A stretch of 64,000 nucleotides of DNA from NCBI RefSeq assembly GCF_005860795.2, contig NZ_CP058350.1:3254501-3318500 (forward strand), given 5' to 3'. This document shows positions 35,362-38,708 of the stretch, piece by piece; the first letter of the stretch is position 1, and each line of letters begins with the position of its first letter. This DNA comes from Peteryoungia desertarenae. GTDB lineage: Bacteria > Pseudomonadota > Alphaproteobacteria > Rhizobiales > Rhizobiaceae. The translations under genes were made by a program, and so were the position numbers. A model generated the notes under the pieces. It ran no database searches and was not told where the DNA came from. It saw only the letters and a program-made list of their open reading frames with translations.

Positions 35362-35811
35362 GTGAGCAAACTTCACATCGAGAATGAACGGATCTTCCCC
35401 GTTTCGAAAGAGCGGCTCTTCTGCGCATTTGCCGATCCCAGCCAGCTTGAGCGCTGGTGGGGCCCGCATGGTTTTACCAACCGTATCGACACCTTCGATT
35501 TCCGCACAGGCGGCGAATGGCACATCACCATGACGTCCTCAGATGAAACCGACTTTGCCAACCGCTGGACCTTTCAGGAGATCGTCGCACCGCACCGGAT
35601 TGTAGCCCTGCATCATGAGCCCATGCATGTCTTCGCGCTGGAGATGCGCTTTGATCCGATTGGGAACGGAACCCGCCTTTTCTGGCGCATGGAGTTTGAC
35701 GATACACCGGAAAACCGCGAGATCGAGCGTTTCATCGCTGCCGCGAACGAGCAGAACTTCGACAGGCTGGCAGCGTTGCTGAATGAGCTATGCAGCGATC
35801 AGTCAGACTGA
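35362..35811 (+). CDS. SRPBCC / AHSA1-like domain protein
   Basis: Protein of 149 aa of the activator-of-Hsp90-ATPase-homologue-1-like START superfamily: IFPVSKERLFCAFADPSQLERWWGPHGFTNRIDTFDFRTGGEWHITM, NRWTFQEIVAPHRIVALHH, and a C-terminal helix NEQNFDRLAALLNEL. The family binds hydrophobic ligands in a deep cavity; the ligand is unknown. It starts at GTG 35362 with a weak AAGAG site. Its 3' end overlaps the convergent uracil-DNA glycosylase gene by 9 bp. Confidence 0.85.
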   Translation: MSKLHIENERIFPVSKERLFCAFADPSQLERWWGPHGFTNRIDTFDFRTGGEWHITMTSSDETDFANRWTFQEIVAPHRIVALHHEPMHVFALEMRFDPIGNGTRLFWRMEFDDTPENREIERFIAAANEQNFDRLAALLNELCSDQSD

Positions 35812-37248
35812 TTGAGCCAGTCGCGCGACTGCCTGCAGGTCTTCCTGAAAACGCCGATGGGCAGTTTGTCGCTCAATCCCCTCTGGGAGCCTTAGAAGAT
35901 AGGATGGATGCGTGGTGACGAACAAGATACGGCCTTCGGCCAAAGGGATCGGATAGCCCCGGACCTCTTCAACCGCTGCAGTGTCTCCGGTCAGGGCGAA
36001 ATAGGCGGTCGCTCCCAATGCCACGATGATCTTTGGATCGATGACGTCCAGCTCTTGAACGAGCCAATGCCGACATTGCTCGATCTCGGGCCTTTCCGGA
36101 CGCCGGTGAATGCGTCGCTTGCCGCGCATTTCATGCTTGAAATGCTTCACGGCATTGGTCACGTAAACCCCTGCCCGACTGATGCCAGCCGCTTCTGTGG
36201 CTTGATCGAAGACCGATCCCGCAGGCCCGACGAAGGGTCGGCCGGCCAGATCTTCCCTATCGCCCGGCTGCTCGCCAACAAACATGATCCTGGCGTCATC
36301 CGGCCCCTCGCCGAAGACGGCCTGGGTCGCATTGCAATGCAGCGGACAGCGAGTGCAGAGCGAGGTCTCCTGACGCACCCGTTCAAGCGGCGCTAGGTCT
36401 GCAAAGCCCTCCCCCTCCCGTCCGCGCCACTGCGCCTGCAGCCGTTCGTGAAAAGCCGGGGGCTGGCTCGCCTCGCGCGCAGCCATTTCCGCCACACGCC
36501 GTTCCGCCCCGGCAATCAGGTCGGGAATCAGCGCAGCCTCGGGCATGTTCTTCCAGTATTTCTTCGGCATTTCCGACTGCATCGCCTTGATCTTCACCCG
36601 TGCCGGATTGAAGATATTGGCAAAATAGGTGCGCCACAATTCATCCGTCGCATCATCCCCCTCCGGTTTTGCAGCGGGCTCACGCGAGGTCTTGAGCGAC
36701 GTGCCGTTCCAGGCCGCAGAACCCTTGGGCGTGGCAATCAGCCAGTCCATGTCGGTGAAACGTCGCTGAAAGAAGCCGGCGGTGCGCGAGACAATGAAAT
36801 GCTCCGGCTCGAACCAGGCAACGAAACGCCGCCGATCTGGCTGCACGGCTTCGACCTCGCGGAAACGCACAAAGGCTTTCATTTTGTGGCTGTCGCGGCG
36901 AACATTCTTGATAAGCCGCATCAACTGCGACACATCCGGATCGGACGTGACCTGCAGCAGGCTACGCTCCTCCTGCAAGCGCCAGAGGATACGATAAAGC
37001 AGTGAAAACCGGTCGGGATCGGAATGGCAGATTGCCGCCTCCGCAGCCTCCAGAAACGAGCGGGAAACAGATACCGTAGCTGTCTCATTGGGCGATATCG
37101 GCTCCCCTGGACACCCGAAGAGGTCGGCCGCCTGCCCCCTTAGCTGCCAGCGCACATGCTGCGGCAAAACCTTGTCAACCAGCAGTCGACGGGCAGCATC
37201 CCGCCACTCGCCAAAATCACCGCGGCCTTCGAGAAGAACTGTCTGCAT
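35803..37248 (-). CDS. udgX: UdgX-family uracil-DNA glycosylase fused to DUF4130
   Basis: Protein of 481 aa with two parts. Residues about 1-240 are the DUF4130 / probable DNA metabolism domain (TIGR03915 type). Residues about 280-481 are a family-4-like uracil-DNA glycosylase with Fe-S cysteines Cys298, Cys301 and Cys392, the GEQPGDREDLAGRPFVGPAG active-site motif near 325, and HPSYLLR near 458. The loop KRRIH at 377-381 is the UdgX signature; in mycobacterial UdgX this His bonds covalently to the abasic site. The fusion and the radical SAM partner upstream are known from TIGR03914/03915/03916 gene pairs. Its start overlaps the radical SAM stop by one base (TGATG), so translation is coupled. 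Confidence 0.93.
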   Translation of the reverse strand: MQTVLLEGRGDFGEWRDAARRLLVDKVLPQHVRWQLRGQAADLFGCPGEPISPNETATVSVSRSFLEAAEAAICHSDPDRFSLLYRILWRLQEERSLLQVTSDPDVSQLMRLIKNVRRDSHKMKAFVRFREVEAVQPDRRRFVAWFEPEHFIVSRTAGFFQRRFTDMDWLIATPKGSAAWNGTSLKTSREPAAKPEGDDATDELWRTYFANIFNPARVKIKAMQSEMPKKYWKNMPEAALIPDLIAGAERRVAEMAAREASQPPAFHERLQAQWRGREGEGFADLAPLERVRQETSLCTRCPLHCNATQAVFGEGPDDARIMFVGEQPGDREDLAGRPFVGPAGSVFDQATEAAGISRAGVYVTNAVKHFKHEMRGKRRIHRRPERPEIEQCRHWLVQELDVIDPKIIVALGATAYFALTGDTAAVEEVRGYPIPLAEGRILFVTTHPSYLLRLPEGIERQTAHRRFQEDLQAVARLAQSV

Positions 37249-38477
37249 CAGAAAAGCGACAATTGCTCTGGCTGCGGCGCGAAAGCCGCGCGCAGATCCG
37301 AACGGTCAAGCGCGCGGTGCGGCGACCAGCCTTCTGCGACAATGAAAGACCGCACTTTCTTGAGCGACACGCCCAGACGACTGAGATCCTCCAGCCGGAT
37401 CCGACGATGACGGCGGGCAGAAATCAGCGACTTGACGGTCTTGGTGCCAAAGCCCGGCACTCTCAAAAGCGTCTCGCGATCCGCCGTGTTCACATCCACC
37501 GGAAATCGGTCGCGATTGGCAAGGGCCCAGGCCAGCTTCGGATCAAGCTCCAGATCCAGCATGCCATCTTCGCGCGCCGACGTGATTTCCTCGATCGAAA
37601 ACCCATAGAAGCGGTAGAGCCAGTCGGCCTGGTAAAGCCTATGTTCGCGCACCAGAGGCGGCTTGATCAAGGGCAGATTGCGGGAACTGTCCGGGATGGG
37701 GCTGAAGGCCGAGTAATAGACGCGCTTCAGCTGATAGCCACTGTAGAGGCGTGCACTTGAGCCAAGAATTGTCGCGTCGCTGGCACCGTCGGCCCCGACA
37801 ATCATCTGGGTGCTTTGCCCCCCGGGGACAAAGCGCTTCTTTCGACCCGTGAAAGTCGGCTCACGCGCCTCCTCGATCTTCAGCCTGAGATCGTCCATCG
37901 AACGCCGAATTCCAGCCGGCTTCTTTTCCGGCGCATAGCGCGCCAGCCCCTGATCGGTCGGCAATTCGATATTGAGTGACAAGCGATCGGCATAAAGCCC
38001 CGCCTCCTCGACAAGTTGCGGTGACGCCTCGGGAATGGTTTTCAGATGAATGTAACCTCGGAAGCCATGCTTGGTTCTGAGGTCGCGGGCAACCTGCACC
38101 ATCTCCGCCATGGTGTCATCCGACGACCGGATGATCCCGGAGGATAGAAACAGCCCCTCGATATAGTTCCGCCGATAGAACTCGATCGTCAGCCAGACAA
38201 CTTCATCCGGCGTAAAGCGCGCTCGCTCCACATTGCTCGAAGAGCGATTGATGCAATAGGCGCAGTCATAAATGCAGAAATTCGTCAGGAGAATTTTCAG
38301 CAGCGATATGCAGCGCCCGTCCGGCGCATAGGCATGGCATATGCCGGAACCCTCGGTGGAACCAAGCCCACCGGATTTGGACGAGTCACGACGCACCGTA
38401 CCGCTGGACGCACAAGAGGCGTCGTATTTTGCAGCATCGGACAGAATGGCAAGGCGCTCTTTCAACGATTTCCTCAT
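37248..38477 (-). CDS. Putative DNA modification/repair radical SAM protein (UDG-linked)
   Basis: Protein of 409 aa matching the radical SAM family paired with UDG-domain proteins (TIGR03916). The N-terminus has LAILSDAAKYDASCASSG and a conserved GICHAYAPDGRCISLLK. The Fe-S triad is Cys68-x3-Cys72-x2-Cys75 in NFCIYDCAYC. A C-terminal helix-hairpin-helix region (VNTADRETLLRVPGFGTKTVKSLISARRHRRIRLEDLSRLG) implies DNA binding. No reaction has been shown. The start may be ATG 38477 or, with the better TGAGGAAA site, TTG 38465. It heads an operon with udgX and has an exact LexA box directly upstream. Confidence 0.93.
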   Translation of the reverse strand: MRKSLKERLAILSDAAKYDASCASSGTVRRDSSKSGGLGSTEGSGICHAYAPDGRCISLLKILLTNFCIYDCAYCINRSSSNVERARFTPDEVVWLTIEFYRRNYIEGLFLSSGIIRSSDDTMAEMVQVARDLRTKHGFRGYIHLKTIPEASPQLVEEAGLYADRLSLNIELPTDQGLARYAPEKKPAGIRRSMDDLRLKIEEAREPTFTGRKKRFVPGGQSTQMIVGADGASDATILGSSARLYSGYQLKRVYYSAFSPIPDSSRNLPLIKPPLVREHRLYQADWLYRFYGFSIEEITSAREDGMLDLELDPKLAWALANRDRFPVDVNTADRETLLRVPGFGTKTVKSLISARRHRRIRLEDLSRLGVSLKKVRSFIVAEGWSPHRALDRSDLRAAFAPQPEQLSLF

Positions 38478-38484
38478 GGGAATC

Positions 38485-38499
38485 GTTCTCTATATGTTC
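38485..38499. promoter_or_regulatory. LexA (SOS) box GTTC-N7-GTTC
   Basis: GTTCTCTATATGTTC is an exact match to the alphaproteobacterial LexA direct repeat GTTC-N7-GTTC (GAAC-N7-GAAC on the coding strand of the operon). It lies 7 bp upstream of the radical SAM ATG, where a repressor would block transcription. It predicts DNA-damage induction of the radical SAM-udgX operon. greA lies on the other side 209 bp away. Confidence 0.82.
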
Positions 38500-38708
38500 T
38501 TTTATCCACAGTCAACTTGTTACGTCGAAACAAGGACTTGGACATAGCGTCGCAGCCGATCGAGATGGTCCATGCGAAATCTCTGGAAATTGCGCGAGGC
38601 ATTCTGCTATAGTCTTCGCATCGTTGATTTGTGACTGGTTCCGTGGCTTCGCTTCGGAACCTGTTCTTTTATGTCCGCCAGCGGTCATGAAATGCGAAGG
38701 AAGAAGAA

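Follow-up and report, generated by a model that had tools for sequence, protein, structure and literature searches.

A LexA-box operon of Peteryoungia desertarenae encodes a radical SAM protein with a clamp-type tail, its constant partner DUF4130 and an optional UdgX

The closest system described so far is the COG1573-COG4277 operon, a two-gene set of Bacteroidetes found under two motifs, CTAA-N5-TTAG and GGA-N5-TCC (PMC8565304). That paper also refers SOS regulation of the glycosylase-based system to Verrucomicrobia (Erill 2016) and to Alphaproteobacteria/Caulobacter (Paes da Rocha 2008), names SplB as SOS-regulated and, by term search, contains no DUF4130. UdgX is also described as a stand-alone protein, MsmUdgX (8iie; PMC10359453), and the UdgX papers that were searched by term mention no operon, SOS or DUF4130. 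In the open-access literature we found no publication joining UdgX with radical S-adenosylmethionine (SAM) enzymes or with LexA, and no title on this family among the matches for the clamp motif with radical SAM or SOS, or for imuB or dnaE2 with radical SAM. The locus considered here lies in a stretch of 64,000 nucleotides from Peteryoungia desertarenae (contig NZ_CP058350.1, positions 3,254,501 to 3,318,500; ‘the window’ below), in which a radical SAM gene preceded by a LexA operator is followed by a gene fusing DUF4130 to a UdgX glycosylase domain. The operon has the following parts:

38485-38499, minus strand: LexA operator, GAACATATAGAGAAC in the direction of the operon and GTTCTCTATATGTTC (GTTC-N7-GTTC) on the plus strand, recognized by sequence and conservation
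38477-38475, minus strand: start codon ATG of the radical SAM gene, 7 bases beyond the LexA box
37248-38477, minus strand: radical SAM gene, 409 aa (TIGR03916, 571.6 bits against a cut-off of 343.5)
35803-37248, minus strand: DUF4130-UdgX fusion gene, 481 aa, its start sharing one base with the radical SAM stop (TGATG)
36529-37248, minus strand: DUF4130 (TIGR03915) domain, over the curated cut-off; its predicted model has a predicted local distance difference test score (pLDDT) of 89.1
35824-36402, minus strand: UdgX domain, residues 283-475 (TIGR03914, 314.2 bits against a cut-off of 189.95)
36106-36120, minus strand: KRRIH R-loop with the cross-linking His, residues 377-381, aligned to solved UdgX chains

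Our best reading, to which we give a probability of roughly 60%, is that the operon encodes an SOS-induced lesion-processing enzyme made up of the radical SAM protein and DUF4130, which would be recruited by the beta sliding clamp and to which UdgX would be an accessory. What is added here to the published picture is the clamp-type tail of the radical SAM protein, a set of extra cysteines, the dispensability of UdgX and a mutasome neighbourhood in some lineages; SOS control is not the new part, because it is already in print for the two-gene set (PMC8565304).

In profile searches the window proteins exceed the curated cut-offs of TIGR03916, TIGR03915 and TIGR03914, and among named relatives the closest, at about 90% identity, come from Rhizobium. 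The pair is a full member of these linked families, as an original prediction made from the sequence of the window had stated, and the operon is one more example of a family already known; the constancy of DUF4130 and the variability of UdgX, described below, are added to it here. The same prediction had placed an exact LexA box 7 bp before the radical SAM start, a one-base overlap TGATG between the genes (found at position 37248) and, in the second gene, DUF4130 joined to a glycosylase with the UdgX KRRIH loop, and the coordinates, profiles and alignment agree with it on each count. COG4277 is presumably TIGR03916, and the window operon differs from the COG1573-COG4277 operon in that its glycosylase is fused behind DUF4130. 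The window UdgX has the GEQPG, KRRIH and HPSxxxR motifs, all of them present, and has GEQPG, KRRIH and HPS-LLR in common with stand-alone UdgX (alignment E values of about 6e-49 to 7e-49, the best being 6.1e-49); the solved UdgX-type chains amount to about one domain (205-229 aa), whereas the UdgX of the window is fused to DUF4130 in a radical SAM operon.

Two sets of loci were used for comparison. The 150 Pseudomonadota loci are all places that scored over the cut-off (with L207 and L208, which are longer, standing in for L030 and L031 of the same genomes); by kinship 121 of them belong to the class of the window and 29 to others, and the naming of that class as Alphaproteobacteria rests on the Rhizobium names. 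The 80 named loci are the best 80 of a longer scan and form an uneven sample, mostly Bacteroidota with some Pseudomonadota, Chlorobiaceae, Fibrobacter-type organisms and one Heliobacterium.

On the evidence of sequence comparison DUF4130 is the constant partner of the radical SAM protein and UdgX is an optional add-on. Among 398 Pseudomonadota genomes the radical SAM protein scores over the cut-off in 84 and DUF4130 in 87, and every one of the radical SAM genomes (84/84) has DUF4130; remnants with a stop were also seen, of DUF4130 in G130 and of the radical SAM gene in G473. The family is present in Caulobacter too: the Caulobacter vibrioides genome used as a control matches TIGR03916 and, above its cut-off, TIGR03915. 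At the 150 loci DUF4130 and UdgX form one frame in 125 cases and two frames in one, DUF4130 stands alone in 23 and one locus has neither. Of the best 80 named loci, 74 have DUF4130 behind the radical SAM gene in the same orientation, and no UdgX domain is found at any of the 80 in stretches of up to 9 kb. A whole-genome search of the 25 genomes that do not have the one-frame fusion at the locus gave UdgX (TIGR03914) over the cut-off in four (G252, G287, G299 and G213), in all of which the fusion is split, by a contig end, an inserted stretch or a change of frame. The remaining 21 of the 25 gave none over the cut-off (nine no match, 12 weak matches only), and the three strongest weak matches (L224-L226) are without the R-loop, L227 (G597) and the weaker matches lying outside that inspection. 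On a tree of 98 radical SAM proteins, obtained by a short search and with long branches flagged, the UdgX state changes at least eight times, at least three of these changes being forced by well-supported branches; for this count the four split cases were scored as having UdgX, and 14 loci added from the 80 named ones as lacking it, judged from their stretch alone. Where UdgX is present its cross-linking His is kept in 125 of 126 domains. Three cysteine positions, presumed Fe-S ligands, were checked in these domains, and 19 of the 126 have Ser, a gap or Tyr there. In two of the split cases (L114 in G287 and L119 in G299) about 3 kb with other frames lies between the radical SAM gene and DUF4130-UdgX, both genes and the LexA box being kept. 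Comparison of DUF4130 with 20 RecJ proteins (DHH/DHHA1 phosphoesterases) gave an hhalign probability of 0.2%, and sequence-profile homology to them was not found by this measure.

The radical SAM protein itself carries four features of note:

37251-37265, minus strand: QLSLF, C-terminal motif of the type that binds the beta sliding clamp, a putative binding site
38253-38276, minus strand: CX3CX2C radical SAM cluster motif, C68/C72/C75, present in 230/230 proteins
38310-38414, minus strand: extra-cysteine segment with C22, C47, C56 and H48, a possible site of an auxiliary Fe-S cluster
37410-37544, minus strand: helix-hairpin-helix (HHH) region, residues 312-356, a sub-threshold match to Pfam HHH_3/HHH_5

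The QLSLF tail of the window protein fits the consensus peptide QL[S/D]LF given for beta-clamp clients (PMC3716654). Of 230 radical SAM proteins 225 have Q at the position of its first residue, Q405, and a clamp-type pattern is found in 206 of 229 tails (the truncated protein L288 was dropped), against a mean of 5.7 and a maximum of 15 after shuffling; the exact QL[S/D]LF form accounts for 54 of the 229. The tails of the partner proteins from the same operons show the pattern in none of 148 cases (0/125 fused, 0/23 solo). Besides QLSLF, QLNLF and QLDLF there are longer QLTLDF-like forms, six-residue clamp motifs being known, and all of them stand at or near the extreme end of the protein behind a variable linker; in the single-protein model of the window protein residues 405-409 have pLDDT below 50 and appear unstructured. 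These properties suggest that the radical SAM enzyme would dock on the beta clamp via its C-terminal tail.

At the other end of the protein C22, C47, H48 and C56 are invariant in 230/230 radical SAM proteins, beside C68, C72 and C75. The predicted model has pLDDT 84.6 overall but below 50 for residues 22-55, as might be expected if this segment folded only around a metal cluster. For the radical SAM protein the original prediction had named CX3CX2C and an HHH tail: the cysteines stand as residues 68, 72 and 75, and the HHH region is found only below the Pfam cut-off. Among the matches listed, the barrel is closest in fold to LipA and HydE, with BioB-type enzymes close behind. The scores of LipA and HydE lie within 1 Z unit of each other and that of BioB is not far below, so that the fold does not single out one of them. 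Compared with these lipoyl synthase, HydE and BioB enzymes the window protein adds the HHH region, the clamp-type tail and the DUF4130 partner.

The LexA box of the window proves little as a single exact match, because the bare pattern is not rare in either the window (three occurrences where 1.58 are expected, with three reached in 19 of 100 shuffles) or the genome (122 against 143 for a reversed control). It is judged to be more than chance because it is conserved across loci of the same class. In a first search GAAC-N7-GAAC preceded the radical SAM gene in 23/23 loci, window included, and in the larger set (either direction, from -120 to +20) it is present in 116 of 121 window-class loci and 0/29 others, or in 95/100 when 21 near-relative same-genus loci are left out. 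The other classes instead have CTGT-N8-ACAG (19/29, rising to 24/29 with one arm base relaxed), which occurs in 0/121 window-class loci. Controls with spacers one base longer or shorter give 0 or 1, within-gene stretches also give 0 or 1 and shuffles give at most 4. In an alignment of the box, restricted to the 101 loci whose box has the GAAC orientation, the spacer holds 0.77 bits and the upstream flank 0.06, the arms having 2.0 bits by selection. CTAA-N5-TTAG, one of the published Bacteroidetes motifs, is found in 20 of the best 80 named loci, most of which are Bacteroidota, and its spacing controls give 0 and 1. This conservation of the operator, across classes that have different LexA operators, makes SOS control of the operon very likely. 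The SOS reading of the original prediction is strongly supported by the 116 of 121 same-class loci, though it is not new, and the loss of the box from orthologous promoters that was to count against that reading is not what we see. The genome has a lexA gene (182.8 bits against a cut-off of 110.95), the identical operator 15-mer precedes an ImuA-like frame elsewhere in it (C1:847528-847542, L209; named from its translation), and further boxes adjoin DinB-like and SSB/UvrA-like frames (likewise named from their translations). Two other occurrences may be recorded. GAAC-N4-GTTC, the Gram-positive type of LexA operator, stands upstream in L283 and L297 (Fibrimonadaceae and Heliobacterium), that is in 2 of the best 80 against a shuffled mean of 0.07, and the Streptomyces radical SAM protein vnz_31145 appears in a LexA chromatin immunoprecipitation/RNA-sequencing table (PMC9380542).

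Two putative promoter elements accompany the box:

38511-38515, minus strand: -35-like TTGAC, a candidate promoter element
38489-38494, minus strand: -10-like TATAGA within the LexA box, 11 nt from the start codon, a candidate promoter element

TTGAC starts exactly 16 nt before the box in 21/21 same-genus loci, the middle of the box in these loci reads [AG]T[AT]TAG[AGT] and the start codon follows 4-7 nt past the box. Since the -10 element would lie within the operator, LexA would block the promoter directly, and because the distance from box to start is so short the operon mRNA probably has no leader or a very short one.

In part of the sample the operon lies beside genes of the ImuA-ImuB-DnaE2 mutasome, with which it has the LexA-type operator in common: imuA-imuB or dnaE2 adjoin it in 15 of 150 loci. 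ImuB-like frames occur in 13/150 (10 divergent, three upstream in the orientation of the operon), and in 5/150 dnaE2 lies downstream. A dnaE2-like frame directly follows the pair in L091, L094, L098, L099 and L104; those of L091 and L098 are partial frames whose best NCBIfam match is error-prone DNA polymerase (474 and 485 bits) and those of L094, L099 and L104 were identified by phmmer, while in L091, L098 and L104 the ImuB-like frame also precedes the pair in the same orientation. At L100-L103, L107, L108, L111, L191, L193 and L194 the upstream ImuB-like frame is on the opposite strand and an ImuA-like frame separates it from the pair, and therefore two operons diverge from one region with a LexA box. 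Two ImuB-like frames (L091 and L103) match PF00817 over the cut-off; three ImuA-like frames that were tested gave 35-38 bits, well below the ImuA model cut-off of 150. The radical SAM protein differs from the mutasome in not being a polymerase and in its radical SAM chemistry, and the window copy is not adjacent to mutasome genes. The module is present in 20 of 35 same-genus genomes (some of them incomplete), and from 158 plasmid records it is seen to be carried on many large plasmids, of Phaeobacter, Paracoccus, Azospirillum and others; as it is patchy in the genus and plasmid-borne, it probably moves.

From sequence comparison, then, we infer damage induction, clamp binding, DNA as the substrate and the auxiliary cluster, and the operon might work as follows. 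On damage LexA would leave the operator covering the -10 element, and both proteins would be made from a short-leader or leaderless mRNA. The QLSLF-type tail would bring the radical SAM enzyme to beta clamps where forks have stalled or gaps been left, the places at which SOS polymerases work, and SAM-derived radical chemistry, probably aided by a C22/C47/C56 auxiliary cluster, would act on a base lesion that blocks replication and that DUF4130 may help to hold or present. In many Proteobacteria the UdgX fused to DUF4130 would covalently capture uracil or abasic sites arising there. The more specific picture, of a clamp-tethered, replisome-docked SOS radical SAM enzyme with a DUF4130 subunit and an N-terminal auxiliary cluster, working beside ImuAB-DnaE2 on lesions otherwise left for polymerases to bypass and carrying a detachable UdgX trap for abasic sites, is put forward tentatively, at a little short of an even chance. 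To our knowledge, which here extends to open-access listings, no clamp-tethered radical SAM enzyme acting on DNA lesions has been described before.

Several observations weigh against our best reading. SOS control is not established as universal, since exact operators are missing in part of the loci: in five of the window class (L166, L173, L175, L188 and L195) and in 10 of the others (a variant differing by one base is present in five of these 10). A reversed-arm control also matches in 3/121 window-class loci, CTAA-N5-TTAG is limited to its 20 named loci, GGA-N5-TCC is at chance (2 of the best 80 against a shuffled mean of 1.3) and many Bacteroidales loci among the best 80 show neither. DUF4130 is over the cut-off in three genomes without the radical SAM protein (G258, G275 and G344) and is absent from the stretch at five of the best 80 named loci, a sixth (L288) ending with its contig. 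The HHH match scores 21.7 bits against a cut-off of 27, 23 of 229 tails miss the clamp-type pattern and variants such as QMALW, QLSLL and QLGFGF occur, and 135 of 150 loci, the window included, have no mutasome gene within the stretch read, which reached 1.5 kb upstream and 3 kb downstream. DNA as substrate is suggested by context, and a protein or nucleotide substrate is also possible.

The original prediction had the radical SAM enzyme possibly altering or resolving the base or the UdgX-DNA adduct formed when UdgX captures an abasic site covalently. The in-frame union of UdgX with DUF4130 in 125 of 150 loci and the near-invariant cross-linking His would suit such a role, but as a general function it is not supported: against it stand the 21 of 25 genomes that have the radical SAM protein and no TIGR03914 match over the cut-off, the lack of an R-loop in the three strongest weak matches, the 80 further loci without UdgX in stretches of up to 9 kb and the repeated changes of UdgX state on the tree. 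As DUF4130 is constant while UdgX varies, adduct resolution cannot be the general function, and we regard this explanation as highly improbable, although the fused forms of UdgX might have it as an additional role. The dispensability of the uracil-DNA glycosylase (UDG)-type domain also bears on the idea that the radical SAM protein alters an undamaged base or nucleotide (thymine, PMC3765255, or by LipA-like sulfur insertion using the extra Cys) which that domain would then remove or mark; that the fold does not decide between LipA, HydE and BioB-type enzymes also tells against it, and we think it quite unlikely.

Direct reversal of ultraviolet (UV) photoproducts in the manner of spore photoproduct lyase (SPL), as an SplB-like label would have it (PMC3765255), agrees with the radical SAM motif, the LexA-type operator, the DNA context and the SOS regulation of SplB itself (PMC8565304). 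Many of the named loci, however, come from Bacteroides, Prevotella, Alistipes and Parabacteroides, some from the rumen, presumably meeting little UV, and the 50 fold matches listed for the radical SAM protein include LipA, HydE, BioB and others and no SPL (no direct comparison with SPL was made); we consider this explanation very unlikely. The QLxLF tail might instead be a surface for packing against DUF4130 or for another protein contact, and QMALW and QLGFGF do depart from the clamp consensus; the position of the QLSLF, QLNLF and QLDLF forms near the extreme end behind a variable linker, and the lack of structure in the model of the protein alone, argue against it, and we consider a non-clamp role unlikely.

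With the enzyme seen as an SOS-induced, clamp-recruited one, the focus moves from the UdgX adduct to the core formed by the radical SAM protein and DUF4130. If clamp docking is true, a radical SAM enzyme would be acting at the replication fork while the SOS response is on, a prospect of interest to the fields of radical enzymes and DNA damage alike.

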